Origin: Sandaracinobacter neustonicus
GTDB lineage: Bacteria > Pseudomonadota > Alphaproteobacteria > Sphingomonadales > Sphingomonadaceae
Assembly: GCF_006385875.1 (NCBI RefSeq)
Contig: NZ_VFSU01000028.1
Span: 1 to 64,000, forward strand
DNA length: 64,000 bases
Direction: 5' to 3'
Numbering within the stretch: the stretch's first letter is position 1; every line of letters begins with the position of its first letter. Positions 41-56,111 of this stretch are shown here, one piece after another. A program made the position numbers and the translations under genes. The notes under the pieces are model-generated. The model saw only the letters and a program-made list of their open reading frames with translations, was not told the origin of the DNA and ran no database searches.

Positions 41-317
41 CCGCTCAGGCTGAGCTTGTCGAAGCCCCCGAAGCAAAAGCGCAACGGCTAAGCTCGCAGT
101 CATGCCACATGGGGCTTCGACAAGCTCAGCCTGAGCGGGGGGAGGGGTAATGGGAGACTGCCCCAAAGCGCCGCAGGCAATAACTTCCAACCTAGCGCCA
201 AGCGGATAGCCCCCACCCCAACCCCTCCCCTACAGGGGAGGGGCTCAGAAAAAGTTCGGGGGTGCAGGGGCGTCACGCCCCTGCCGGGTGGTGGGCAGAG
301 CCCGCCCCGCCGGAGGC
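41..317 (+). repeat. Composite intergenic repeat, copy 1 (left part replaced)
   Basis: This 0.3-kb gene-free stretch holds repeat modules only. A 26-bp inverted pair lies at 41-66 and 113-138, with arms beginning CCGCTCAGGCTGAGC and a 46-nt spacer. It is followed by a segment with CGCCGCAGGCAATAA near 170, a GC-rich palindrome at about 200-242 (CCCCTCCCC/GGGGAGGGG), a hairpin at 265-283 with stem GGGGCG/CGCCCC, and the terminal CCGCCGGAGGC ending at 317. The same modules recur in the same order in seven other intergenic regions of this window. The adjacent amidohydrolase gene ends at 344. Confidence 0.8.
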
Positions 318-4784: not shown

Positions 4785-4856
4785 GGCTGGCGTCAGCGGG
4801 TTTCTCCTGATCGGTTCTGGTGGGTCGGAAAGCATGCCTCCGGCGGCGATTTTTTT

Positions 4857-5367
4857 GCCTCCGGCGGGCAGGGAAATGATTTCCCTGCACCCTCAAAATT
4901 TGTGTTGCGGTCCAACTCCAGCATCGTGGACGTGATCAGCTTCGATTGCCTGCGGCGCTACGCAAACTCTCTCTCCCCTCAAGGGGAGAGAGTTGGAGAG
5001 AGGGGAGCAACGCCGGGTCAAACACACCACCCTACTCACCCGCTCAGCCTGAGCTTGTCGAAGGCCTCCGAGCAAATCCACCGACCTCCCCACAACCAGA
5101 TGGTCACCCCGGACTTGATCCGGGGTCCAGCTGTTCTTCTGCGACGTTGGAGAAGAAAGCGAGGCCCCGGATCAAGTCCGGGGCGGCGCTTTGGAGAGCG
5201 CAGGACGCTCTCCAAAGCGCCGCAGGCAATAAACCCCCAGCCTCGCGCCCGGCGGATGGCCCCCACCCCAACCCCTCCCCTGCAGGGGAGGGGCTAAGAA
5301 AAGGTCCGGGGGTGCAGGGGCGTCACGCCCCTGCCGGGTGCCGGGCAGAGCCCGGCCCGCCGGAGGC
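4857..5367 (+). repeat. Composite intergenic repeat, copy 2 (full, 511 bp)
   Basis: The unit begins with GCCTCCGGCGGGC (4857-4869) and ends with its exact reverse complement (5355-5367). Inside, in order, are a hairpin around 4870-4888 (stem GGGAAA/TTTCCC), a TTCGATTGCCTGCGGCGC segment near 4940, a CTCTCCCC/GGGGAGAG palindrome near 4970-4990, CCGCTCAGCCTGAGC at 5040, a CCCCGGACTTGATCCGGGG palindrome at about 5107 with its inverse at about 5164, CGCCGCAGGCAATAA near 5218, the GC-rich palindrome at about 5264-5294, and a hairpin with stem GGGGCG/CGCCCC at about 5315-5333. No coding potential is apparent. It lies between convergent genes. Confidence 0.88.
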
Positions 5368-5408
5368 AACTCCAGCCCACGGGAAGCTAACCCCGCCATC
5401 CGCACCCA

Positions 5409-11680: not shown

Positions 11681-11702
11681 GCGTTGCCCCTAGCCGCAAT
11701 TT

Positions 11703-12173
11703 GCCTCCGGCGGGCAGGGAAATGATTTCCCTGCACCCTCGAACTTTGCGTTGCGCCCCAACTTCCACGTCGTGCGGGTGATCAGATTCGATTGCCTGCG
11801 GCGCTACGTAGGCTCTCTCTCCCCGTTGGGGAGAGAGATGGAGAGAGATGGAGAGAGGGGGCAACGTGGGGGTCCGATCCACAAGCCTCCCCACCCGCTC
11901 AGCCTGAGCTTGTCGAAGGCCCCAGAGCAAGCCCGCCAACGTCATCACACCCACAACCGTCACCCCGGACCTGATCCGGGGTGACGTCATGGTGCTGGAG
12001 AGGCGGGGGGGACATGCTCCAAAGCGCCGCAGGCAATAACTCCCAGCCTCGCGCCCGACGGATGGCCCCCACCCCAACCCCTCCCCTGCAGGGGAGGGGC
12101 TAAGAGAAACTCCGGGGGTGCAGGGGCGTCACGCCCCTGCCGGGTCCCGGGCAGCGCCCGGGCCGCCGGAGGC
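11703..12173 (+). repeat. Composite intergenic repeat, copy 3 (471 bp)
   Basis: It starts with GCCTCCGGCGGGC at 11703 and ends with a 12/13 match to its reverse complement at 12173. The internal modules follow the usual order: GGGAAA/TTTCCC hairpin, TTCGATTGCCTGCGGCGC, CTCTCCCC palindrome with a small GGAGAGAGAT duplication, CCGCTCAGCCTGAGC at 11895, a single CCCCGGACCTGATCCGGGG palindrome, CGCCGCAGGCAATAA, the GC-rich palindrome near 12071-12101, and a GGGGCG/CGCCCC hairpin. This is the only copy between divergent genes, so it lies in a promoter region. Confidence 0.88.
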
Positions 12174-12269
12174 CTCCCCCGCCTCCAACATCCCCATCAC
12201 CCCCCGAAAAAACCGCTAGCTGCCCACGCCCTCCGGCTTCCCCTAACCCTCCGCTCAAGGAGACCCACA

Positions 12270-15139: not shown

Positions 15140-15634
15140 CGCGCCGCGCGGCCAAGGGCTTTGCCCTTGGAACCCAGCAGGGAAATGATTTCCCTGCACC
15201 CTCAACATTTGCGTTGCGCCTGAACTCTCACGTCGTCTGAGTGATCAGATTCAATTGCCTGCGGCGCTACGTGGCTCTCTCCCCCTGCAAGGGGGAGAGT
15301 TGGAGAGGGGGTGTCACCGGTCGGCCTGATCCGCAACATCCCCACCAACCACAACCGTCACTCCGGACTTGATCCGGGGTCCAGCTGATCTTCGGCAACG
15401 TGGGAGAAGAAAGCGGGGCCCCGGATCAAGTCCGGGGTGACGGGTGGAGAACGCAGGGCGCTCCCCGAAGCGCCGCAGGCCATAAATCCCAACCTCGCGC
15501 GCAGCGGATGGCCCCCACCCCAACCCCTCCCCTCGAAGCGAAGCTGACGCGAAGCGTCAACGGGAGGGGCTCAGAAAACTAAGGGGGTGCAGGGGCGTCA
15601 CGCCCCTGCCGGGGTGAAGGGGCAGGGCCCCTTC
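15140..15634 (+). repeat. Composite intergenic repeat, copy 4
   Basis: This copy has a different pair of end hairpins. On the left, CCAAGGGC-TTT-GCCCTTGG (about 15152-15170) replaces the GCCTCCGG end. On the right, GAAGGGGC-AGG-GCCCCTTC (15616-15634) replaces the CCGGAGGC end and overlaps the stop codon of the next gene. The internal order is kept: GGGAAA/TTTCCC hairpin, TTCAATTGCCTGCGGCGC, CTCTCCCC region, the CCCCGGACTTGATCCGGGG inverted pair (about 15361-15440), CGCCGCAGGC, the GC-rich palindrome with inner TGACGC hairpin, and a GGGGCG/CGCCCC hairpin. Confidence 0.86.
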
Positions 15635-31959: not shown

Positions 31960-31991
31960 GCGGTTGGGGGGCGTTTTTGCGCGCCGCGCGG

Positions 31992-32224
31992 CCAAGGGCT
32001 CTGCCCTTGGAACCCGGCAGGGAAATGATTTCCCTGCACCCTCTAAGTTGGCGGGGTGGCCCAATTTAAACGCCGTGTGAGTGATCAGATTCGATTGCCT
32101 GCGGCGCTACGCGGCTCTCTCTCCCCGCCGGGGAGAGAGATGGAGAGAGGGGAGCAACGTTGGGCCAAACCCACGACCCTCCCCACCAACCACAGCCGTC
32201 ACCCCGGATCAAGTCCGGGGTGAC
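31992..32224 (+). repeat. Composite intergenic repeat, copy 5 (right part missing)
   Basis: The left end hairpin is CCAAGGGC-TCT-GCCCTTGG (31992-32010), then AACCCGG, then the GGGAAA/TTTCCC hairpin (32018-32036). TTCGATTGCCTGCGGCGC and the CTCTCCCC palindrome follow. The unit breaks off after a CCCCGGATCAAGTCCGGGG palindrome (32201-32220, flanked by GTCA/TGAC). The GC-rich palindrome and right-end hairpins are absent. It lies between the convergent glpD and MFS genes. Confidence 0.84.
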
Positions 32225-32314
32225 GGCTGGAGATCACAAGGCTGAAAGACCAAGTCTGGGTGCCGGGGGCACGGCTGCCTGCCGACGTGAAGCGCCAGAA
32301 CCCCTTCGTTCACA

Positions 32315-33605: not shown

Positions 33606-34166
33606 GCCTCCGGTGACCAAAGGCTCTGCCCTTGGAACCCTGCCTGCGGTTTTTTTTGCCTCCGGCGGGCAGGGAAATGATTTCCCTGCACCCTCAACAT
33701 TTGCGTTGCGCCTGAACACCAGCGCCGTGTGTGTGATCAGATTCGATTGCCTGCGGCGCAACGCGGCTCTCTCTCCCCGCTGGGGAGAGAGGTGGAGAGA
33801 GGGGAGCAACGCCGGGCCAAGCCCACCAACCTCTCCACCCGCTCAGCCTGAGCTTGTCGAAGGCCCCTGAACAAACCCACCACGCTCCCAACCAACCACA
33901 ACCGTCACCCCGGACTTGATCCGGGGTCCAGCTGTTCTTCGGCAACGCTGCGGGTGGAAAGCTTGACCCCGGATCAAGTCCGGGGTGACGGGTGTGGGTG
34001 TGGAGAGGGTGGGATATGCCCCAAAGCGCCGCAGGCAATAACCACCGACCTCGCGCCAAGCGGATGGCCCCCACCCCAACCCCTCCCCTGAAGAGGAGGG
34101 GCTTAAAAAACGTCGGGGGTGCAGGGGCGTCACGCCCCTGCCGGGGTGAAGGGGCAGAGCCCCTTC
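33606..34166 (+). repeat. Composite intergenic repeat, copy 6
   Basis: The left end is doubled. GCCTCCGG at 33606 leads into a CCAAAGGC-TCT-GCCCTTGG-like hairpin, and a second GCCTCCGGCGGGC at 33658 leads into the GGGAAA/TTTCCC hairpin. The standard order follows: TTCGATTGCCTGCGGCGC, CTCTCCCC palindrome, CCGCTCAGCCTGAGC (33839), inverted CCCCGGACTTGATCCGGGG pair (about 33907-33989), CGCCGCAGGCAATAA, GC-rich palindrome with AAGA loop, GGGGCG/CGCCCC hairpin, and the right end hairpin GAAGGGGC-AGA-GCCCCTTC (34148-34166). The rest of the 0.7-kb gap shows nothing. Confidence 0.87.
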
Positions 34167-34228
34167 AATTCTCGTTAGCCGCTCCACCACAGTAGCAGGC
34201 CGCGCCCTTCAAACGTCGCGCCCCCGCC

Positions 34229-36783: not shown

Positions 36784-37584
36784 ATGAGTTTGATGGCGGG
36801 CAAGCGCGGGCTGATCATGGGCGTGGCGAACGACAGGTCGCTGGCGTGGGGCATCGCGCAGGCGCTCAGCGCGCAGGGCGCGGAACTGGCCTTCAGCTAT
36901 CAGGGCGAGGCGCTGGAAAGGCGCGTGCGGCCGCTGGCAGAGTCGCTGGGCGCGGCGAAGCTGTTCGATTGCGACGTATCTTCCGACGAATCGATGGACG
37001 CGCTGTTCACGGATTTGGCCAAGGATTGGCCGACGATCGACTTCCTCGTCCACGCCATCGGCTTTTCCGACAAGAACGAGCTGCGCGGGAAATATGCCGA
37101 AACCAGCCGCGCCAATTTCCTGATGTCGATGGATATCAGCGTTTACAGCTTCACCGCCGTGGCGCGCCGGGCGGCGGCGATGATGCCGGACGGCGGCAGC
37201 ATCCTCACGCTAAGTTACTATGGTGCGGAAAAGGTGGTGCCGCATTACAATGTGATGGGCGTGGCCAAGGCCGCGCTGGAGGCGAGCGTGCGCTATCTGT
37301 CGGTGGATTATGGCCGCGACAATATCCGCGTGAACGCCATTTCCGCAGGCCCGGTGAAAACACTGGCGGCCAGCGGCATCGGCGATTTCCGCTACATCCT
37401 GAAGTGGAACGAACTGAACGCGCCGCTGAAGCGCAACACCACGCTGGACGATGTGGGCGGCGCGGGCGTCTACCTGCTGAGCGATCTGGCCTCAGGCACC
37501 ACCGGCGAAGTGCTGTATGTGGACAGCGGTTACCATGTGGTGGGCATGAAGGCGGAGGACGCGCCGGATATTGCTTTGGCGTAG
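36784..37584 (+). CDS. fabI: Enoyl-ACP reductase (NADH)
   Basis: The product has 266 residues. GKRGLIMGVANDRSLAWGIAQAL is the FabI-type nucleotide site. SYYGAEKVVPHYNVMGVAKAALE holds the Y-x6-K active-site pair, and NAISAGPVKTLAASGI follows in the substrate-binding loop. It catalyses the last reduction of each fatty-acid elongation round and is the usual triclosan target. The start at 36784 has GGAGAG six bases upstream. The gene is followed at once by the first copy of a 170-bp structured element. Confidence 0.97.
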   Translation: MSLMAGKRGLIMGVANDRSLAWGIAQALSAQGAELAFSYQGEALERRVRPLAESLGAAKLFDCDVSSDESMDALFTDLAKDWPTIDFLVHAIGFSDKNELRGKYAETSRANFLMSMDISVYSFTAVARRAAAMMPDGGSILTLSYYGAEKVVPHYNVMGVAKAALEASVRYLSVDYGRDNIRVNAISAGPVKTLAASGIGDFRYILKWNELNAPLKRNTTLDDVGGAGVYLLSDLASGTTGEVLYVDSGYHVVGMKAEDAPDIALA

Positions 37585-37754
37585 CCGGCCGCGATTAGCG
37601 CGAAGCGCTAACTCGCAGACTCGGCGCAGCCACGGACGGCGGGGCGGAGGCCTTCAAGCCGACGAACCCGTCCGACGAGTCCGGCTTTGCCGGATTTTTT
37701 CTTTCTGTTCTTTTAACTCGCCAAAGCGGACTCGGCGGCTTTGCCGCCGGCCGC
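37585..37754 (+). repeat. 3'-end structured element, copy 1 (after fabI)
   Basis: The element starts at the base after the fabI stop codon. It contains, in order, a hairpin with AGCGC-GAA-GCGCT, ACTCGCAGACTCGGCG, a GC-rich stem region, GACGAGTCCGGC-TTT-GCCGG followed by TTTTTTCTTTCTGTTCTTTT, and a final GCGGACTCGGCGGC-TTT-GCCGCC hairpin. The hairpin plus T-run resembles a terminator, but the conserved length is far greater. Three further copies lie at 41373, 42103 and 42703. The remaining bases up to 37830 show nothing else. Confidence 0.82.
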
Positions 37755-37830
37755 CACTCTGCAAGAACGGTCGGCCCACCCACCTCTCGGGTGGACGACG
37801 GGCCGACACGCGCTACTTGTTCCTGAACTC

Positions 37831-38475
37831 TCAGTTGGTCGGCTTGGCGGCTGCAGGCTGAACCGTCAGCATCGTCGCTTTGGGCGCTGTCGCCGGATCA
37901 TAAGCAATCGGCACATCCGTCTGTGCCATCAGTTCTCGCCCCTGCGGGATCAGGGCACTCTTGCCCGTCACAAAGGCGCTGAACACACCAACCAGAACCA
38001 CCGCTGCAACGGTCGCCGTGGTGTTGCCTTCGCCTTCCTGCCGATATTTGCCGGTGATCGGCACATGCTTGTCTCCTAACTCCAGATACTTCAGCTCGAT
38101 TTCCATCTTACCGGATTTGCCGAATGCCCCCTTGTTGGTGTGATAGGTCACTTCACCGACGCCGCGCGTCCCTGCCGGGATCACCACGACGCCGCTGGAA
38201 ACGACATCATTCACCACCGTCATGTTGAAGCGGTCGCCCATTTTGACCGATTTGCTGTTCAAATCCTGATCCATGCGCAGCAGCACATCAGTATTCGCCG
38301 GCAGCACCCCCGTCGGTGCGGCAACAGCGGGTGCGGCGGTCGGTGCAACCGCAGCGGGGGGCGCAGCGACAGGCGCTGGTGCGATCTCGGCAGGGGGTGA
38401 TTTCGGCGGATCGATAGCGAACGCAGGTGCTGAAACAAGGGCGATCGATGTCACCCAGACCAATTTGCTACGCAT
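37831..38475 (-). CDS. Secreted hypothetical protein with TrbI/VirB10-like beta region
   Basis: The product has 214 residues. It has a signal peptide (MRSKLVWVTSIALVSAPAFA) and a Pro/Ala-rich linker (about 20-60). The domain ANTDVLLRMDQDLNSKSVKMGDRFNMTVVNDVVSSGVVVIPAGTRGVGEVTYHTNKG recalls the beta-barrel core of VirB10/TrbI-type or LysM-associated proteins, but the match is only by eye. A hydrophobic stretch near residue 165 (ATVAAVVLVGVFSAFVTG) may be a membrane segment. GGGAGAG precedes the ATG. GC is slightly lower than in the neighbours. The function is unknown. Confidence 0.72.
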   Translation of the reverse strand: MRSKLVWVTSIALVSAPAFAIDPPKSPPAEIAPAPVAAPPAAVAPTAAPAVAAPTGVLPANTDVLLRMDQDLNSKSVKMGDRFNMTVVNDVVSSGVVVIPAGTRGVGEVTYHTNKGAFGKSGKMEIELKYLELGDKHVPITGKYRQEGEGNTTATVAAVVLVGVFSAFVTGKSALIPQGRELMAQTDVPIAYDPATAPKATMLTVQPAAAKPTN

Positions 38476-38603
38476 GAACTCTCCCTGAACAAAGGTGGGG
38501 GCAATCTGCGGGTGCAATCGACAAAGTCAAGTGACATCGTGGTTGCCGAAAACTGGCGTTCCAGAATTTGCCAAACTGCGACCATTCCGCCATCACCCCC
38601 CCC

Positions 38604-39680
38604 ATGTCGCACAACAGCTTCGGCCATCTGTTTCGTTTCACCACATGGGGGGAATCCCATGGCCCCGCGCTGGGTGCGGTGGTGGATGGGTGCCCGCCGG
38701 GGCTGGCGCTGTCCGAAGCGGATATTCAGCCCTTCCTTGATAAGCGCCGCCCCGGCCAGTCGCGCTTCACCACGCAGCGGCAGGAGCCGGATGCCGTCGA
38801 AATTCTCTCGGGCCTGTTCGAGGGCCGCACCACCGGCACCCCCATCAGCCTGCTGATCCGCAACGTCGATCAACGCTCCAAGGATTACTCCGAGGTCGCG
38901 GTGAAATACCGCCCCGGCCATGCCGATTACGCCTACGACGCCAAATATGGCTTGCGCGATCCGCGCGGCGGCGGGCGCTCCTCCGCGCGGGAAACCGCCG
39001 CCCGCGTCGCCGCCGGGGCTGTCGCGCGGCTGGTGCTGGGGCCGGATGTGCGGATCAGCGGCTACCTCGTCGAAATCGGTGGAGATGCCATCGATCGCGG
39101 CAACTTCCACGCCGCCGAAATCGACAACAACCCCTTCTTCTGCCCCGACGCCAAAGCCGCCGCGCGCTGGGAAGTCGCGCTGGACGCCGCGCGCAAATCC
39201 GGCTCCTCCCTTGGCGCCGTGGTGGAAGTGGTGGCCGAAGGCGTGCCGCCGGGCTGGGGCGCGCCGCTCTACCACAAGCTGGACAGCCAGCTCGCCGCCG
39301 CGATGATGTCCATCAACGCGGTCAAAGGCGTGGAAATCGGCGACGGCTTCCATGCCGCCCGCCTGCGGGGCGAGGACAACGCCGACGCCATGCGCCCCGG
39401 GCCAGACGGCAAGCCGCTGTTCCTCGCCAACCACGCCGGAGGTGTGGCAGGCGGCATCTCCACCGGCCAGCCCGTGGTGGTGCGCCTCGCGTTGAAACCC
39501 ACCAGTTCCATCCTGACGCCAGTGGAAACCATTACCCGCGCCGGCGAGGCCACCGAGATCACCACCAAAGGCCGCCACGACCCCTGCGTCGGCATCCGCG
39601 CCGCACCCGTCGCCGAAGCCATGATGGCGCTGGTGCTGGCCGATATGAAGCTGCAACAACGCGCGCAGACGGGGCGGTAA
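38604..39680 (+). CDS. aroC: Chorismate synthase
   Basis: The product has 358 residues. [28 protein letters not shown] is family signature 1. [15 protein letters not shown] is signature 2, and [18 protein letters not shown] is signature 3. It converts EPSP to chorismate using reduced FMN, the last common step of aromatic synthesis. The ATG at 38604 follows a C-run rather than a Shine-Dalgarno sequence, so translation may be inefficient or leaderless; the start is set by the family N-terminus MSHNSFGH. It is divergent from the secreted hypothetical gene. Confidence 0.96.
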
Positions 39681-39713
39681 GCGGGGCGGGTTTGGCGCGA
39701 GGGCTGGGGGTTT

Positions 39714-40087
39714 GCCTCTGGCGGGCAGGGCTCTGCCCTGCACCCGGCAGGGAAATGATTTCCCTGCACCCTCGACATTGGCGGAGCGGCCCAATTCCAA
39801 CGCCGTGCGTGTGATCAGATTCGCTTGCCTGCGGCGCTACGAAGCACTCTCCCCCTGCAAGGGGGAGAGTTGGAGAGGGGGTGTCACCGCCCGGCCTGAT
39901 CCACTGACATCACAACAAGCGCGACCAAGACTCTCTCTCCCCGCTGGGGAGAGAGGGGAGCAACGCCGGGCCAAACCCGCCAACCTCCCCACACCCACAA
40001 CCGTCACCCCGGACTTGATCCGGGGTCCAGCTTTCCACCCGCAACGTCGCCGAAGAACAGCTGGACCCCGGATCAAGTCCGGGGTGA
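39714..40087 (+). repeat. Composite intergenic repeat, copy 7 (right part missing)
   Basis: The left end GCCTCTGGCGGGC (39714-39726) runs into AGGGC-TCT-GCCCT, then CACCCGG, then the GGGAAA/TTTCCC hairpin. TTCGCTTGCCTGCGGCGC follows, then two CTCTCCCC palindromes instead of one. The unit ends with the inverted CCCCGGACTTGATCCGGGG pair (40007-40084). The GC-rich palindrome and right-end hairpins are absent. It lies between convergent aroC and the acidic-protein gene. Confidence 0.85.
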
Positions 40088-40166
40088 CGAATGGTGAGGG
40101 CAGCGGCCCAACATCGAGCGAGTGCGCGAAACCAGGCGATTGAAAGCGAAGGGTCCCAACCTCCCC

Positions 40167-40550
40167 CTACTCGTCCGCGCTCAGATCATCCTCGCCCCAG
40201 TCGCTGTCCAGATCGGACATCGCGCTGTCCATATCCTCGATATTGTCCAGTTCATCGTCGCCGGGGTCGGTGTCGCCCAGAATCTCCTCTTCGTCGTCGT
40301 GCATCGGCTCGCCTTCGAAGGCACCGGTGTCGATTTCGCCGGTCTCCACCATCTCGCGCATCACGTCCACAAGGTCGGCGGGCTCGTCGTCATACAGGCT
40401 GGCGGGGTCTGACGGGCCGTGGCGGCTGTCCTGCAATTCCGGGCCGGGGTTCAGCGCATCTTCGGCGACATCCTGCGCCTGCGGGCCATCGTCCTGCTCG
40501 TTGTTGTGGCTTTCGGGGGCTGCGTCGTCCAGCCGGGGTCCATTCGCCAT
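40167..40550 (-). CDS. Highly acidic hypothetical protein
   Basis: The product has 127 residues, about one third Asp or Glu, with almost no hydrophobic core: PADLVDVMREMVETGEIDTGAFEGEPMHDDEEEILGDTDPGDDELDNIED. The only ordered-looking part is DVMREMVETGEIDTGAF (about 60-77), which could be a short helix. It is probably intrinsically disordered in much of its length. It follows the DUF4870 gene by 13 bp on the same strand, so the two are likely co-expressed. I recognise no family. Confidence 0.72.
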   Translation of the reverse strand: MANGPRLDDAAPESHNNEQDDGPQAQDVAEDALNPGPELQDSRHGPSDPASLYDDEPADLVDVMREMVETGEIDTGAFEGEPMHDDEEEILGDTDPGDDELDNIEDMDSAMSDLDSDWGEDDLSADE

Positions 40551-40563
40551 GGTGGTGTCTCCC

Positions 40564-40929
40564 TCAGACGATCCAGGTTTCCACGTTCGTCAGCGGCTGC
40601 TGCTTCTGCGCGGCCATCAGGCTTTTGATGGCGCGGGCGATGAACCACACGGAAACCAGCGGGAACAGCACCCACGCCAGCATGAACAGCGTTATGATGG
40701 AGCCGATAATGGCGACGATCGTCCAGACGATGCCGATCCAGAAGGTGCGGATGTGATAGCGGAAGTGGCTGTCCTGCCAGCTGTCGTGCGGTTCCCCGTT
40801 CCACATATAGGCGAGGATCACGCCGATAATGGAGGTGATGCCTGCCAGAAAGCTGCCCACATAGAGCAGGCTGATGATCGTGGGACGGTTCATGTCGAAA
40901 TCGTTCGTGGTTGCCGGTTCGTTCGCCAA
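40564..40929 (-). CDS. DUF4870-like small membrane protein
   Basis: The product has 121 residues. There are three hydrophobic segments: IISLLYVGSFLAGITSIIGVILAYMW, TFWIGIVWTIVAIIGSIITLFML and AWVLFPLVSVWFIARAIKSL. WQDSHFRYHIRTFWIG between them is typical of DUF4870-type membrane proteins of unknown function. It is the first gene of a pair with the acidic protein and starts 63 bp from the 5' end of rnpB on the other strand, so the two promoters share that gap. Confidence 0.82.
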   Translation of the reverse strand: MANEPATTNDFDMNRPTIISLLYVGSFLAGITSIIGVILAYMWNGEPHDSWQDSHFRYHIRTFWIGIVWTIVAIIGSIITLFMLAWVLFPLVSVWFIARAIKSLMAAQKQQPLTNVETWIV

Positions 40930-40992
40930 ATCATCCTCCTGTCAACAGGCCCGCAACTTGACCTTTTCGGCCGCCCGGCACAAGTGAAAGCG

Positions 40993-41372
40993 GTGCCAGA
41001 AGTCTAGGCGGCCGCGTCCCTGTGAAGGGTCGAGGAAAGTCCGGGCTCCAAGGATTGACGGTGGCGGGTAACGCCCGCCGGGGGCGACCCCAGGGACAGT
41101 GCCACAGAAAGCAGACCGCCTTCCGGCCTTTCGGGGTGAGGGCAAGGTCGAAAGGGTGCGGCAAGAGCGCACCGCGCGGCTGGCAACAGGCGCGGCACGG
41201 CAAACCCCACCGGGAGCAAGACCGAATAGGCGCGCGGTGCTTCGCTTCGGCGGGCAGGCCTGATCCGGCTGACGCGTGCGGGTTGGTTGCTGGAGGTGCG
41301 TGGCGACGCGCATCCGAGATGAATGGTCGCCGCCCGAGAGGGAACAGAACCCGGCTTACGGGCTTCTGGCAC
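40993..41372 (+). ncRNA. rnpB: RNase P RNA (class A)
   Basis: The universal core is present: GAGGAAAGTCCGGGC at 41032-41046, the CRII/CRIII-type stretch AAAGGGTGCGGCAAGAGCGC near 41150, and the 3' partner ACAGAACCCGGCTTAC at about 41344-41359. P1 is a perfect 10-bp helix between 40993-41002 (GTGCCAGAAG) and 41363-41372 (CTTCTGGCAC), which fixes both ends to within a few bases. The length of about 380 nt is normal. RNase P RNA is the ribozyme that matures tRNA 5' ends together with RnpA. A structured 3' element starts at the next base and probably terminates it. Confidence 0.95.
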
Positions 41373-41547
41373 AGCCGCAGGCGGCTGTGATTAAGGCAAA
41401 GCCTTAACTCACAGACTCGCCGAAGGCCCGGCCGGCTGAGGCGGCGATCTCTATCGCCGACCAGTCCGACGACTCGCGGCTTCGCCGCGATCTTTCTTCC
41501 TTCCTTCTCCCTTCCAGGCGGACTCGCAGGCTTTGCCTGCGGCCGCC
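41373..41547 (+). repeat. 3'-end structured element, copy 2 (after rnpB)
   Basis: The element begins right after the rnpB P1 helix with the small hairpin AGCCGC-AG-GCGGCT. Then come TTAAGGC-AAA-GCCTTAA, CTCACAGACTCGCCGAAGGCCCGG, GGCGATCTCTATCGCC, a GCGGC-TTC-GCCGC hairpin followed by a pyrimidine tract (TCTTTCTTCCTTCCTTCTCC), and GCGGACTCGCAGGC-TTT-GCCTGC. The same plan is seen in copies 1, 3 and 4. Confidence 0.83.
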
Positions 41548-41572
41548 CCCCCCTCCAACACTTCGTGGTCCC

Positions 41573-41595
41573 CCTCCCCCGCTTTGCGGGGGAGG
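41573..41595 (+). other. Strong hairpin in the rnpB-ndk gap
   Basis: A perfect 10-bp stem CCTCCCCCGC/GCGGGGGAGG with loop TTT ends 82 bp before the ndk start codon. No T-run follows, so it is not a classical terminator. It may lie in the ndk leader or be a stray repeat module. AGGAA lies eight bases before the ndk ATG. Confidence 0.6.
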
Positions 41596-41677
41596 AACAG
41601 CCCCACCCTTGTGCGCCGCACCATGCTCCGCTAAAGGCCGCCGCCAAATTTCCCCGTAAAAGCACAGGAATTTCCCA

Positions 41678-42100
41678 ATGGCCGTGACCCGGACCTTTTC
41701 GATCATCAAGCCCGACGCCACGCGTCGCAACATCACCGGCAAGGTGACGACCATGCTGGAAGACGCCGGCCTGCGCGTGGTGGCCTGCAAGCGGCTGCAC
41801 CTGACGAAGGCGCAGGCTGAAGGCTTTTACGCCGTGCATGCCGAGCGCCCCTTCTTCGCCGATCTGGTGGCCTTCATGACCTCCGGCCCGGTGGTGGTGC
41901 AGGTGCTGGAAGGCGAAGACGCCGTGGCGCTGAACCGCAAGGTGATGGGCGCAACGAACCCCGATAATGCGGACGCTGGCACGATCCGTAAGGAACTGGC
42001 GGAGAGCATCGAGGCGAACACGGTGCATGGATCTGACAGCGAGGAGAATGCGGCGATTGAGATTGCTTATTTCTTTAAGCCTGAGGAAGTGGTTGGCTAA
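41678..42100 (+). CDS. ndk: Nucleoside diphosphate kinase
   Basis: The product has 140 residues, the normal length. [19 protein letters not shown] is the family N-terminus. [33 protein letters not shown] contains the phosphohistidine (H in NTVHGSD). It equalises nucleoside triphosphate pools by a ping-pong phosphate transfer. The gene is followed two bases after its stop codon by copy 3 of the structured 3' element. Confidence 0.98.
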
Positions 42101-42102
42101 AG

Positions 42103-42276
42103 TCGGCTGCGATTAAGGCAAAGCCTTAACTCGCAGACTCGGCGAAAGCCCGGCCGGCGGAATCGGCGATCTCTATCGCCGATATCCGGCCGACGAGTCC
42201 CGGCTTTGCCGGGACTTTTTCTTTCTATTTCCTTGAATCCCCAAAGCGGACTCGGCGGCTTCGCCGCCGGCCGCGC
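42103..42276 (+). repeat. 3'-end structured element, copy 3 (after ndk)
   Basis: The plan is GATTAAGGC-AAA-GCCTTAAC, TCGCAGACTCGGCGAAAGCCCGGCCGGC, GGCGATCTCTATCGCC, GACGAGTCCCGGC-TTT-GCCGGGAC followed by TTTTTCTTTCTATTTCCTT, and GCGGACTCGGCGGC-TTC-GCCGCCGGCCGC. The stem bases differ from copy 1 (CCCGGC/GCCGGG versus CCGGC/GCCGG; TAAGGC/GCCTTA versus AGCGC/GCGCT) while pairing is kept. Confidence 0.83.
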
Positions 42277-42288
42277 CCCCCGCACAAA

Positions 42289-42663
42289 TCACTCAGGCGC
42301 AGGCCCCAACTGCTCCCACAGTTCCACCTTCACGCCATCACAATCCAATATCCACGCAAACCGGCCATAATCCTCGTCCTGCCGCCCCAGAATCTCGATC
42401 CCCCTCGCCTCCAGCTCCTCGACGAAGCCGTCGATGTCATCCACGCGCAGGTTGATCATGAAGGGCGCGTCAGACGGTGCGAAATAATCCGTTTCCGCCT
42501 TGAACGGGGAGAGCAGGCTGAACGCCTCGGCGCTGTCTTTGCTGTAGGGGAACATCGCGCCCCATTCGCCGCCGATCCCCAGATTTTCCTGATACCAGGC
42601 GCGGGTGCGATCAACGTCTAAGACCTTGTAGAAAATGCCGCCAAGGCTGGTGATGCGTGGCAT
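42289..42663 (-). CDS. VOC-family (glyoxalase-like) protein
   Basis: The product has 124 residues. ITSLGGIFYKVLDVDRTRAWYQENLGI is the first VOC beta-alpha-beta unit. AWILDCDGVKVELWEQ is the typical C-terminal strand with its glutamate metal ligand. Substrates cannot be inferred. The start at 42663 has GGAGGAG upstream. It lies between structured elements 3 and 4 and may be transcribed alone. Confidence 0.85.
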   Translation of the reverse strand: MPRITSLGGIFYKVLDVDRTRAWYQENLGIGGEWGAMFPYSKDSAEAFSLLSPFKAETDYFAPSDAPFMINLRVDDIDGFVEELEARGIEILGRQDEDYGRFAWILDCDGVKVELWEQLGPAPE

Positions 42664-42702
42664 AGGTGCGCTCCTCCCGCTGTGGGTGGAGGGTAGCATG
42701 GG

Positions 42703-42873
42703 CGCGGCCGGCGGCGAAGCCGCCGAGTCCGCTTTTGGTGGGGTAAGAGAAGGAAGGAAGATCGCGGCAAAGCCGCGAGTCGTCGGACGGGTTCGTCGGG
42801 CTGAAGCCCTCCGCCCCGCCGGCCGAGCCTTCGGCGAGTCTGTGAGTTAAGGCTGCGCCTTAATCATAGCCGC
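42703..42873 (-). repeat. 3'-end structured element, copy 4 (after the HNH gene)
   Basis: Read on the minus strand, the element starts at the base after the HNH stop codon. It shows TTAAGGC-GCA-GCCTTAA, CTCACAGACTCGCCGAAGGC, a GC-rich stem, CGCGGC-TTT-GCCGCG followed by the pyrimidine tract ATCTTCCTTCCTTCTCTT, and GCGGACTCGGCGGC-TTC-GCCGCCGGCC. The orientation follows the gene it trails, as in the other three copies. Confidence 0.83.
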
Positions 42874-43479
42874 CTACGCCTCAAGCTCCACATCCCAATA
42901 CAAATAATCCCGCCACGTCTCATGACAATAATGCGGCGGAAACGCCCGCCCATGCTCCTGCAACTGGTGGCTCGTCGGCTGCGTCGGACGGGTGCGCGGC
43001 AGCATATGCGCCTCAGCCGGAGTCCGCCCGCCCTTGCGCAGGTTGCACGGCGCGCAGGCCGTGGTGACATTCTGCCATGTGGTGCGACCGCCATAGGCGC
43101 GCGGCACGACATGATCGAACGTCAGCTCATGGTGCGATCCGCAATATTGGCACTGGAAGCGGTCGCGCAGGAACAGGTTGAAGCGGGTGAAGGCCGGGTT
43201 CTGGCTGGGCTTCACATATTGGCGCAGCGCGACCACGCTGGGCAGCCGCATGGTGAAGCTGGGGCTGCGGATTTCGCGCTCATACTGGGCGATCACGTCC
43301 ACCCGCTCAAGAAAGGCGGCCTTGATCGCGTCCTGCCAGCTCCACAGGCTGAGCGGGTAATAGCTTAAGGGGGTGTAGTCGGCGTTCAGCACCAACGCCG
43401 GGCAGGCCTGCGGGCTTTGCCAGCGGCCGCCGTCATGCTCGGGCCGCCATCGTTCCTGGAAAAGATCGGGATGATACAT
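42874..43479 (-). CDS. HNH endonuclease
   Basis: The product has 201 residues. The C-terminal half has the HNH/zinc-finger core: CQYCGSHHELTFDHVVPRAYGGRTTWQNVTTACAPCNLRKGGRTP, with two CxxC pairs and DHVVP as the catalytic His motif. The N-terminal half (CPALVLNADYTPLSYYPLSLWSWQDAIKAAFLERVDVI) is the conserved extension of a widely distributed chromosomal HNH group, not a homing endonuclease. Its cellular role is not established. It is divergent from gluQ. Confidence 0.92.
   Translation of the reverse strand: MYHPDLFQERWRPEHDGGRWQSPQACPALVLNADYTPLSYYPLSLWSWQDAIKAAFLERVDVIAQYEREIRSPSFTMRLPSVVALRQYVKPSQNPAFTRFNLFLRDRFQCQYCGSHHELTFDHVVPRAYGGRTTWQNVTTACAPCNLRKGGRTPAEAHMLPRTRPTQPTSHQLQEHGRAFPPHYCHETWRDYLYWDVELEA

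Positions 43480-48360: not shown

Positions 48361-48364
<4 letters not shown>
47936..48364 (+). CDS. Rrf2-family SUF operon regulator
   Basis: The product has 142 residues. The winged helix is [65 protein letters not shown]. Four cysteines in [19 protein letters not shown] are spaced like the [2Fe-2S] site of IscR-type regulators. It should sense cluster status and control sufBCDS, which start with sufB at an ATGA overlap. A dyad in its upstream region is a likely auto-operator. It corresponds to the SUF system Fe-S assembly regulator group. Confidence 0.92.
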
Positions 48365-49824
<1,460 letters not shown>

Positions 49825-49845
<21 letters not shown>

Positions 49846-50356
49846 GCCTGACCCCAACAGACACCGCAAAACGAACGCAAACCCCTCCCCTTCAGGGGAG
49901 GGGCAAGGGGTGGGGGCTATCCGCAGACACAAGCTCGGTTCTGCAATCCCGGGCGCGCGACATGCGCAACAATCCGACCGAACCGGAAAAGCGCTTGTGG
50001 CGGAACCTCTCGAACGGCCAGCTTGCGGGTCACAAATTCCGTCGGCAGGCGGTGATCGGCCCCTACATCGCGGATTTCGTTTGCCCGTCGAAGCGGTTGA
50101 TCGTTGAAGTCGATGGCCACACGCACGCTGCGGGGCGGGACGCCGTGCGGGATTCGGCACTTGCGGCACAGGGTTATCGCGTTCTGCGCGTGAACAATGA
50201 CGATGTGATGCGGAACATGGAGGGGGTTCTGCGGGTGATTTCCGATGCGCTGGATGAGCAGGCGGTTGCGCGTGCGGATGGCCCCCACCCCAACCCCTCC
50301 CCTGAAGGGGAGGGGCTTTCTCGTGCGCACCTGGAAGGGAGCGTCGGATGAGCCTG
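49825..50356 (+). mobile_element. DUF559 cassette inserted in the suf operon, bounded by inverted and direct repeats
   Basis: Outer boundaries: 26-bp imperfect direct repeats at 49825-49850 and 50331-50356 (CTGGAAGG, a variable centre, GGATGAGCCTG). Each contains an ATGA stop/start junction and codes for LEGSVG. Inner boundaries: the GC-rich palindrome of the composite repeats, inverted at 49881-49924 and direct at 50274-50317, nearly identical over 44 bp. Between them is a DUF559 reading frame. The layout is that of a small mobile unit that landed at the sufB 3' junction without breaking translational coupling. Confidence 0.65.
49842..50351 (+). CDS. DUF559 nuclease-like protein with repeat-encoded ends
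   Basis: The product has 169 residues. The DUF559 core runs from residue 41: [75 protein letters not shown] and VEVDG are the acidic positions of a PD-(D/E)xK-like (Vsr-related) fold. The first 40 and last 25 residues are translations of the GC-rich palindromes ([24 protein letters not shown]) and are probably not functional domains. The ATGA overlaps at both ends keep the operon coupled. Either the ATG at 49842 or the one at 49962 could be used. Activity is unproven. Confidence 0.82.
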
Positions 50357-50695
50357 TTCGCCCTGTTCCTGCTCGCGCAGGCCGCCACCACGCCGCCGCC
50401 TGAAGCTGCGCCGGATGACGGCGACGAGATCGTCATCCTCGCCCGCAAGCTGAAGCTGGTGCAGGTGCATTTGCTGCGCACCGGCCATGGTCAGCCGGGC
50501 ATCTGCACCATCCAGAAATCCAGCGGAGACGCAGAGGTGGACAAGCTGACGTGCGAAGCCGCCGTCGCCTGCACGCTGAAGCTGCCGTCCCGCTCCACCC
50601 CGCCTGCCGAGATGACCGCCTGCACCCGCGAGGAGCAGGCCCGCCGTGTCGAGGAACTGGCGGACAAGCGCATGCAGGAAGACAAGAACAACTGA
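50348..50695 (+). CDS. Small exported hypothetical protein in the suf operon
   Basis: The product has 115 residues. A short hydrophobic N-terminus ([13 protein letters not shown]) may be a signal peptide. The rest is charged, with three cysteines (GICTIQ, LTCEAAVACTLK) and TACTREEQARRVEELADKRMQEDKNN at the end. No family is recognised. It is embedded between the DUF559 gene and sufC with TGATG coupling to sufC, so it is co-expressed with the SUF system. Its likely periplasmic location does not fit a direct cluster-assembly role. Confidence 0.7.
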   Translation: MSLFALFLLAQAATTPPPEAAPDDGDEIVILARKLKLVQVHLLRTGHGQPGICTIQKSSGDAEVDKLTCEAAVACTLKLPSRSTPPAEMTACTREEQARRVEELADKRMQEDKNN

Positions 50696-51435
50696 TGCTG
50701 GAAATCACCAATCTTCACGCCAAGGTCGGCGACCGCGAAATCCTGAAGGGCCTCACGCTTTCCGTGAAGGCGGGCGAAGTCGCGGCCATCATGGGGCCGA
50801 ACGGCGCGGGCAAGTCCACGCTGGCGCATGTGCTGGCGGGCCGCGAGGGCTATGAAGTGACCGCAGGCAGCGCCACCTTCGAGGGGGCAGATCTGCTCGC
50901 GCTGGAGCCGAACGCGCGCGCCGCCGCCGGGCTGTTCCTTGGCTTTCAATATCCGGTGGAAATCCCCGGCGTTTCCAATCTGTTGTTCCTGCGCACCGCG
51001 CTGAACGCCCAGCGCAAGCTGCGCGGCGAAGCCGAAATCTCCGGCGCGGAATTCCTGAAGCGCGTGCGCGAGGAATCCGCCGTGCTGGGGCTGGATATGG
51101 AGATGCTGAAGCGCGGCGTGAACGTCGGCTTTTCCGGCGGCGAGAAGAAGCGCAACGAGGCGTTCCAGCTGGGCATATTGCAGCCGAAATTCGCCCTGCT
51201 GGATGAAACCGATTCCGGGCTGGATATCGACGCACTGCGCATCGTTTCCGAAGGCATCAACCGCTTCCGTTCGCCCGAACGCGCCGTGCTGCTGATCACC
51301 CATTATCAGCGGCTGCTCGATCATGTGAAACCCGATGTGGTGCATGTGCTGGCGGGCGGCCGCATCGTCGAAACCGGCGGGCCTGATCTCGCGCTCCGGC
51401 TGGAAGCGCAGGGCTATGAAGGCATCGCTGCATGA
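50695..51435 (+). CDS. sufC: Fe-S assembly ATPase SufC
   Basis: The product has 246 residues. The ABC ATPase motifs are Walker A GPNGAGKST (about 36-44), signature VGFSGGEKKRNE, Walker B ALLDETDSGLD, and LLITHYQRLL as the H-loop region. GYEVTAGSATFEG is typical of SufC. It drives conformational changes in SufBC2D during cluster formation in the cytoplasm. The start codon overlaps the upstream stop as TGATG and it overlaps sufD by ATGA. Confidence 0.97.
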   Translation: MLEITNLHAKVGDREILKGLTLSVKAGEVAAIMGPNGAGKSTLAHVLAGREGYEVTAGSATFEGADLLALEPNARAAAGLFLGFQYPVEIPGVSNLLFLRTALNAQRKLRGEAEISGAEFLKRVREESAVLGLDMEMLKRGVNVGFSGGEKKRNEAFQLGILQPKFALLDETDSGLDIDALRIVSEGINRFRSPERAVLLITHYQRLLDHVKPDVVHVLAGGRIVETGGPDLALRLEAQGYEGIAA

Positions 51436-55520: not shown

Positions 55521-55541
55521 ACGTTTGGGGCTGGGTTTTTC

Positions 55542-56111
55542 GCCTCCGGCGGGCAGGGCTCTGCCCTGCACCCGGCAGGGAAATGATTTCCCTGCACCCT
55601 CTACATTTGCGTTTCGCTGCAACTCCAACTTCGTGCGCGTGATCAGATTCGATTGCCTGCGGCGCTAGGAAGCCCTCTCCCCCTGCAAGGGGGAGAGATG
55701 GAGAGGGGGTGTCACCACCGGGCCTGATCCGCTGACATCCCCACCCGCTCAGCCTGAGCCCTGAGCTTGTCGAAGGGTCGAAGGCCCCACAGAAACCCAC
55801 CAACCTCCCCACACCCACAACCGTCACCCCGGACTTGATCCGGGGTCCAGCTTTCCATCCGCAACGTTGGAGAAGAAAGCGGGTCCCCGGATCAAGTCCG
55901 GGGTGACGTGTGGAGAGGAGAGCGGAACACGCCCCAAAGCGCCGCAGGCAATAAATCCCAACCTCACGCCCGGCGGATGGCCCCCACCCCAACCCCTCCC
56001 CTCGAAGCGAAGCTGACGCGAAGCGTCAACGGGAGGGGCTAAAATAATGTCGGGGGTGCAGGGGCGTCACGCCCCTGCCGGGTGGCGGGCAGAGCCCGCC
56101 CCGCCGGAGGC
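55542..56111 (+). repeat. Composite intergenic repeat, copy 8 (full, 570 bp)
   Basis: The unit starts GCCTCCGGCGGGC (55542-55554) and ends with a 12/13 reverse complement at 56111. The left end has both hairpins (AGGGC-TCT-GCCCT, then GGGAAA-TGA-TTTCCC). The standard order follows. The CCGCTCAG module (55745) carries a small internal duplication (CCTGAGCCCTGAGC), and the palindrome near 55990-56038 has the inner TGACGC hairpin. The right end carries GGGGCG/CGCCCC and GCGGGC-AGA-GCCCGC hairpins. It lies between two co-directional genes. Confidence 0.88.

Follow-up and report, generated by a model that had tools for sequence, protein, structure and literature searches.

The window analysed here is a stretch of 64,000 nucleotides from Sandaracinobacter neustonicus (contig NZ_VFSU01000028.1, positions 1 to 64,000), and carries at 49842..50351, on the forward strand, a gene for a YcjD-like DUF559 protein of the PD-(D/E)XK type, recognised from the list of open reading frames, a PF04480 match and an alignment. 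The Pfam scan of the deduced product gave PF04480 with E 8.6e-35 and 119.3 bits, over the gathering score of 20.6, and besides it MTES_1575 alone, below threshold; the conserved domain spans 49944-50252 (+), with its E..D..E-x-D-G..H residues intact. The gene is preceded by sufB (48361..49845, +), whose 3' end overlaps the DUF559 start, and followed by a small uncharacterised gene (50348..50695, +) and then by sufC (50695..51435, +), the sufB-sufC interval being one that holds DUF559 in several related genera. In another genome of the genus (G003), a gene similar to the small one lies directly 3' of sufB.

Two copies of a GC-rich palindromic element bracket the gene, and we refer to gene and elements together as the unit. 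The left copy lies at 49881..49924 (+), and the right (50274..50317, −) is inverted relative to it. Toward the gene both have the same order of parts: the C-arm CCCCTCCCC is separated by a short loop from the G-arm GGGGAGGGG, after which a linker leads to another G-arm, GGGGTGGGGG, which faces the gene. The reverse complement of the left copy aligned with the right along some 46 bp, interrupted by a single 1-bp gap and a few mismatches, and the local inverted-repeat score of the locus was 67, as compared with a maximum of 39 among 2570 control windows, confirming the proposal of an earlier sequence-only reading that inverted palindromes bound the gene. The same reading held that the gene translates its palindromes, which is correct provided that translation begins at the ATG at 49842, both elements then lying inside the translated frame. 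The unit is also bracketed by a 26-bp direct repeat (49825..49850 and 50331..50356, both +; 21/26 identical), a possible target duplication that encodes LEGSVG-stop and closes both the SufB and the DUF559 frames. We did not find this repeat in G005, and discarded target duplication of 26 bp as a general rule, since it was present in the window genome (G000) only.

The palindrome matched the window six times with at most one mismatch (222, 5272, 12078, 34080, 49882 and 50294), with no match in 100 shuffles, and partial copies occur at 15504 and 55973. Across the 3.65-Mb genome we counted 85 copies at up to three mismatches and 46 at up to two, as compared with 1 and 0, respectively, for a reversed control. 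Apart from the two DUF559 flanks, the window holds four full copies (202..246, 5252..5296, 12058..12102 and, with one mismatch, 34060..34104, all + and found by the palindrome search), and these sit in a larger composite repeat; the surroundings of the DUF559 flanks differ from it, as do those of some copies elsewhere in the genome (L008, L010, L012 and L017). The composite repeats (4854-5370, 11700-12176, 15141-15613, 31981-32240, 33633-34178, 39711-40096 and 55539-56082) contain several palindromes each, including GTCACCCCGGACTTGATCCGGGGT and other three-arm elements, and are dispersed as larger blocks. One such further family (CTCTCTCCCC..GGGGAGAGAG..GGAGAGAG) is represented at 11811..11847 (+), and again at 32113 and 33765, and a separate family of long repeats of 82-104 bp, direct and inverted and with GATTAAGGC-like hairpins, occupies 37578-42881. 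The genome contains two additional DUF559 genes, each between inverted elements of the same plan and different sequence. Those flanking the second gene (C34:369196) we designate type B, and one type-B element occurs in the window at 41550..41595 (−).

Alignment of 20 DUF559 sequences showed E15, W19, D44, E55, D57 and G58 to be invariant and H61 nearly so, a pattern that fits a PD-(D/E)XK-type nuclease in which E15, D44, E55 and D57 would be catalytic. The DUF559 profile matched 3hrl (E 1.1e-23), PvuRts1I and, at E 1.5e-4, PDB entry 3r3p, a 'Mobile intron protein', whereas the Vsr model reached 18.5 bits on DUF559, far below its cut-off of 97.85. YcjD has been assigned to the PD-(D/E)XK superfamily (PMC1189080). 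With DUF559 as the only Pfam family above threshold, the enzyme is not a Y1 transposase, as had been read from the sequence, and its conserved acidic residues fit the PD-(D/E)xK-like assignment made there. The Caulobacter DUF559 protein VsrA was studied genetically and predicted to be a Vsr-like repair nuclease, in a paper whose accessible text does not contain the words palindrome, inverted repeat or hairpin (PMC12907096). A role as a defence system was rejected, the PADLOC matches being weak (best DpdF, E 2.1e-4, 17 bits, at L102).

To score bracketing, we compared, in inverted orientation, the 220 bp on either side of each PF04480 match in 59 genomes, those of the window and its relatives (87 matches, of which 85 measurable), and defined strong matches by E < 1e-12. 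Scores of at least 40 were obtained for 48 of the 71 strong DUF559 loci, and for none of 2570 control windows of the same shape at the same loci. Of the 14 weak matches one scored as high and, being a piece of a split DUF559 gene, it indicates that the weak class does not consist purely of other proteins. Among loci of type-B proteins, 65 of 80 reached 40, as compared with 4 of 4579 controls; these were the best 80 of at least 304 confirmed relatives, nearly all titled Sphingomonadales or Alphaproteobacteria, with Microvirga (L168) and Arthrobacter (L169) also present. All 16 loci fetched from a species-rich genus of the family had scores of 33 or more, 13 of them reaching 40, in a set that had no control windows. 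For the phylum we took the best matches, one per genome, from the 145 matching genomes in a draw of 398 Pseudomonadota: 14 of these 30 loci scored at least 40 (controls 1/176), and the other 16 showed no inverted flanks at that score.

In a plasmid collection, six of 14 loci, chosen for spread from 44 records and including four of the five Deinococcus, scored at least 40 (four Deinococcus, Pseudanabaena and a Sphingomonas plasmid), as compared with 0 of 260 controls; Picosynechococcus scored 34 and the remaining seven at most 27. Inverted flanks were thus seen in all four Deinococcus looked at and in one of three cyanobacteria and, together with Pseudomonadota, they occur in three phyla. The second arm of the Deinococcus element faces outward, indicating that polarity differs between families. 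In this set we found no inverted flanks at the Azospirillum, Shinella, Sinorhizobium, Photobacterium, Synechocystis and E. coli loci, the last of which has elements on one side, as judged by eye. The Deinococcus units (L310, L311, L319 and L320) occupy different places within hpa/paa catabolic clusters; the Sphingomonas parapaucimobilis plasmid (L318) carries suf genes with a bracketed DUF559 between sufB and sufC; and at a Neisseria gonorrhoeae locus (L309) a palindrome lies on both sides of the DUF559 gene in direct orientation, again by eye. Systematic flanking of DUF559 genes, which the sequence-only reading had suggested looking for, is therefore real in many loci (48/71, 65/80 and 14/30 in the relatives, type-B and phylum sets). 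The single palindrome that it implied is not: none is universal, and we rejected that idea in favour of DUF559 lineages that each have their own.

The similarity of the flanking elements tracked the identity of the proteins between them (Mantel r 0.506, 134 loci, 0 of 999 permutations), also when restricted to loci outside the type-B scan (r 0.449, 65 loci, 0 of 999). Related proteins from different genomes had elements with a similarity of 0.54 (n=95), while for divergent paralogues in the same genome it was 0.25 (n=20), and for unrelated pairs from different genomes 0.27 (n=1373). That the element follows the protein argues for recognition, and not for the general repeat stock of the genome.

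In the relatives set, flanks scoring at least 35 were found at 49 of 58 loci whose strict D/E/D residues are intact, as compared with 2 of 14 whose residues are not; no inverted flanks were found at the other nine of the 58 despite strictly intact residues. The two altered copies that kept their flanks are L029 and L062, the latter with E55Q, and the 12 remaining ones, each having lost at least one of the D, E and D residues, are all at the suf locus and all without elements. DUF559 genes stand between sufB and sufC in many related genera, and elements accompany those copies that retain their residues and could be scored on both sides (G000, G005, G012, G024 and G028); in G024, an intact bracketed copy is immediately followed by a degenerate, unbracketed one. 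We found no DUF559 upstream of sufC in three genomes of the same genus (G001-G003), and a fourth (G004) has a contig end there; two of the three loci were read, and contained the neighbouring genes without the unit. Sequence upstream of the suf-locus DUF559 is similar, by eye, in G000, G005 and G028, suggesting that the unit is mainly vertically inherited there. RAYT genes, too, are mainly vertically inherited. Copies that lost residues are kept between sufB and sufC in L081-L087, L099 and their relatives, and such suf-locus proteins without catalytic residues are likely domesticated.

From 84 loci we parsed type-B elements, 144 in all. Left and right inner stems differed at 58 of the 60 loci having both sides, and all 108 distinct inner stretches could form a stem of at least 3 bp, 86 of them one of at least 5 bp. 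Triloops were present in 90 inner stretches, of the GNA type in 79, with C-G closure in 78 of these 79, counts that stand without a shuffled control. GNA-type triloops form very stable DNA mini-hairpins. The next base pair beyond the type-B loop closure is not the one called for by a stable RNA loop of the opposite strand, and this, with the GNA triloops, would favour folded single-stranded DNA as the recognised form. Constraint by an RNA hairpin, with a UNCG loop on the complementary strand, was not favoured, contexts GC-GNA-GC (43) and CC-GNA-GG (33) both occurring.

Elements also occur as inverted doublets. Among the 146 type-B sites in the matches listed, after dropping 4 overlapping alternatives, 39 of the 40 pairs lying less than 100 bp apart were oriented as they are around a gene, 29 of the 39 with a spacer of 40-48 bp and 26 of the 39 from one genome, G016. 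Such doublets resemble the unit without its gene, with a short spacer instead. In G016 the type-B outer end was TCAT in 30 of 37 element ends, or in 23 of 30 if ends sharing their outer flanks are counted once (20 regions). Three near-identical doublets and one further pair of this genome share outer flanks, and are thus parts of larger duplicated blocks that give no evidence of doublet movement; we accordingly rejected the three like doublets as moved copies.

The plan of the element, a C-rich arm, a loop, a G-rich arm, a loop and a second G-rich arm, is that of the PIT or TM_ECO repeats; in many genomes the sequence pattern agrees as well, and one K-12 copy of TM_ECO is near ycjD. The name PIT (potential intrastrand triplex) reportedly stems from the first papers on such elements. 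The window element is a related variant outside the TM_ECO-type pattern, which had 0 matches in the window genome. Holder et al. (2015) found TM_ECO 23 times in E. coli K-12 and 3610 times across 262 proteobacterial genomes, noted inverted pairs in K-12, reported triplex formation in vitro and linked the repeats with local instability (PMC4666352). The accessible part of that paper reports no mobility functions near the motif, and its main text does not contain the words 'endonuclease', 'nuclease' or 'ycjD' (PMC4666352). The suggestion of an undescribed class of repeat was consequently too broad, its plan being that of the intrastrand triplex elements (PMC4666352).

We compared the distribution of a TM_ECO-type pattern, with loops somewhat wider than those of PMC4666352, with that of DUF559 in the 398 Pseudomonadota genomes. 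Of the 110 genomes with strong DUF559 (E < 1e-12), 66 contained the pattern, as did 17 of the 288 without (OR 24, p 8e-30); the two groups had 2022 and 395 sites, respectively, and the reversed pattern matched once in the 398 genomes. The association persisted with DUF559 at E <= 0.001 (70/145 versus 13/253, OR 17) and when stratified by the 16 families holding both states, which cover 199 of the 398 genomes (OR 16, p 4.5e-13). Vsr, in contrast, tracked the pattern weakly (29/100 versus 54/298, OR 1.85, p 0.02, at E <= 0.001), an association that was gone among DUF559-negative genomes (4/56 versus 13/232), and Y1_Tnp did not track it (45/212 versus 38/186, OR 1.05, at E <= 0.001). Of the 59 relatives, 37 have strong DUF559 and 22 do not; the window palindrome was found in 23 and 2 of these, respectively, and the type-B element in 15 and 0. 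There are exceptions: G001 and G002 hold 3 and 10 copies of the window palindrome without strong DUF559; G197, a genome that is 87% complete and in which no DUF559 was found, carries the pattern 130 times and, G029-type exceptions apart, is joined by 16 more among the 17 of 288 genomes that show the pattern without strong DUF559; and G016 and G017 contain 102 and 33 type-B sites, yet type-B flanks at none of their DUF559 genes. On the whole, the occurrence of the palindromes tracks that of DUF559 (66/110 versus 17/288; 23/37 versus 2/22), the opposite of homologues lacking palindromes and of DUF559-less genomes being equally rich in them, which the sequence-only reading had named as contrary to its proposal.

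The DUF559 gene of E. coli is ycjD, which we matched in 3365 of 5426 genomes of the species, and TM_ECO number 9 of K-12 lies 168 bp from it. In 60 records spread evenly over 5421, the matches listed comprised 21-37 element places (median 35) in the 37 records with ycjD and 2-37 (median 9) in the 23 without, some of which keep 20-37; because E. coli strains are clonal, this count is supportive only. It agrees with published distributions: phylogroups A, B1 and C conserve ycjD, ST69 and ST182 also have it, and others carry eefRABCD at that position (PMC12817139), while the TM_ECO count was 29 in one strain, 1 in another and nil in Salmonella (PMC4666352). Between alx and sstT, two strains, 100117 (ycjD-negative) and A25, have the K-12 doublet collapsed to a single short hairpin with the outer arms kept (L325 versus L327 and L328), a remnant and not an empty site, which is compatible with decay after gene loss. 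In some E. coli strains, such as PEC131 (L329, 447-900), other sequence, about 0.2 kb more than in K-12 and including an annotated hypothetical protein, replaces this doublet. We found no clean empty site for the suf unit, for the unit of G298 or for this one E. coli doublet (alx-sstT); the G298 unit is absent in G506, whose genes on either side are separated by about 60 bp, and the junctions are not clean.

The likeness to RAYT transposases (TnpA-REP) and their REPs and REPINs, which the sequence-only reading had pointed out, was borne out: a single gene stands between inverted palindromes that are also dispersed as single elements and inverted doublets, the repeat is matched to the protein lineage, and one unit is found at the same locus in several genera. 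The differences are that a PD-(D/E)XK-type nuclease takes the place of a Y1/HUH domain, Y1_Tnp having no match in the window genome; that the element has three arms and no GTAG or CGTC foot, neither motif being present on either strand within 49861-49945 and 50256-50340; and that several divergent nuclease genes per genome are common. Lacking the Y1 enzyme and the GTAG tag, the system is not a member of REP/RAYT. MITEs and insertion sequences also have short non-autonomous derivatives with terminal inverted repeats, but the window protein has no transposase domain and we found no regular target duplication. Vsr-fold homing endonucleases are of the EDxHD type, and with these and Vsr itself DUF559 shares distant profile similarity and an acidic/His motif; the association of Vsr genes with the repeats, unlike that of DUF559, is weak and disappears when DUF559-negative genomes are taken by themselves.

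Together, our results provide good support for a link between DUF559 nucleases and three-arm palindromic repeats, and in our judgement its probable explanation is that three-arm GC-rich palindromic repeats have DUF559/YcjD nucleases as their resident partner enzymes. The autonomous unit would be element, nuclease gene and inverted element, and the single elements and inverted doublets, in which a short spacer replaces the gene, would be its non-autonomous derivatives. We infer that each element is recognised by its own nuclease, probably when folded as single-stranded DNA at replication forks, that the enzyme may nick beside it, and that repair would then copy or keep the elements, allowing the population to persist as REPINs do with a RAYT. 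REPINs persist together with a RAYT. Because hydrolytic nucleases do not form a covalent intermediate, the joining would have to be done by host repair. Spreading or keeping of the repeats by the nuclease is the most likely mechanism, and movement by the nuclease is inferred from the sequences compared here.

A somewhat unlikely alternative is that the repeats are tolerated, being neutral or regulatory, and that DUF559 is a repair nuclease that resolves them, the two being retained together because cells rich in such structures need the nuclease. It would suit the local instability associated with the repeats (PMC4666352), the repair role predicted for VsrA (PMC12907096) and the collapsed doublet of the ycjD-negative strain 100117, but it predicts neither a lineage-matched element bracketing the gene itself nor doublets of the same geometry. 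Unlikely, too, is a homing-type drive, in which DUF559 would break or nick unoccupied targets and recombination would copy the unit in, the elements serving mainly as boundaries and binding sites. Units of Vsr-fold homing endonucleases are copied in just this way, by recombination after a cut at an unoccupied target, and the profile match to 3r3p, the suf-locus unit common to several genera and a Sphingomonas plasmid, and the Deinococcus units at different places in hpa and paa operons all point in this direction. Homing, however, concerns one allelic site only, and by itself leaves tens to hundreds of dispersed elements and the gene-less doublets unexplained. That a Y1/HUH transposase (RAYT) moves the repeats with DUF559 as a passenger is suggested by the layout, and is very improbable given that Y1_Tnp is unrelated to the pattern (OR 1.05) and was not matched in the window genome. 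Chance or base composition, with GC-rich palindromes to be expected throughout any GC-rich genome, has a negligible probability: the elements and many of the genomes are indeed GC-rich, but the same-locus controls (0/2570), the reversed pattern (1 match in 398 genomes) and the matching of element to protein speak against it, and we rejected it on the two controls.

Returning to the partner-enzyme explanation, we tentatively extend it as follows: DUF559/YcjD may be the enzyme of widespread selfish or domesticated repeats, a PD-(D/E)XK nuclease recognising its cognate three-arm element, triplex-capable and often GNA-looped, in the form of folded single-stranded DNA, and spreading it via nick-and-repair, a non-homologous counterpart of REP/RAYT that would also explain the orphan PIT/TM_ECO repeats. 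Neither the repeats as a class nor the protein family is new in itself; we found no description of their link in the searchable literature, which included few subscription papers and no preprints. As enzyme class and element differ from those of REP/RAYT, and the link was not found described, we consider the system to be of a new kind.

Triplex-type palindromes number tens to hundreds per genome in many genomes, E. coli K-12 included, and we found no partner gene for them in the searchable literature. A nuclease family of unknown function, also present in E. coli K-12, is now genetically tied to these repeats. If our explanation is true, the way of life of REP and RAYT would have arisen a second time, with a different chemistry.
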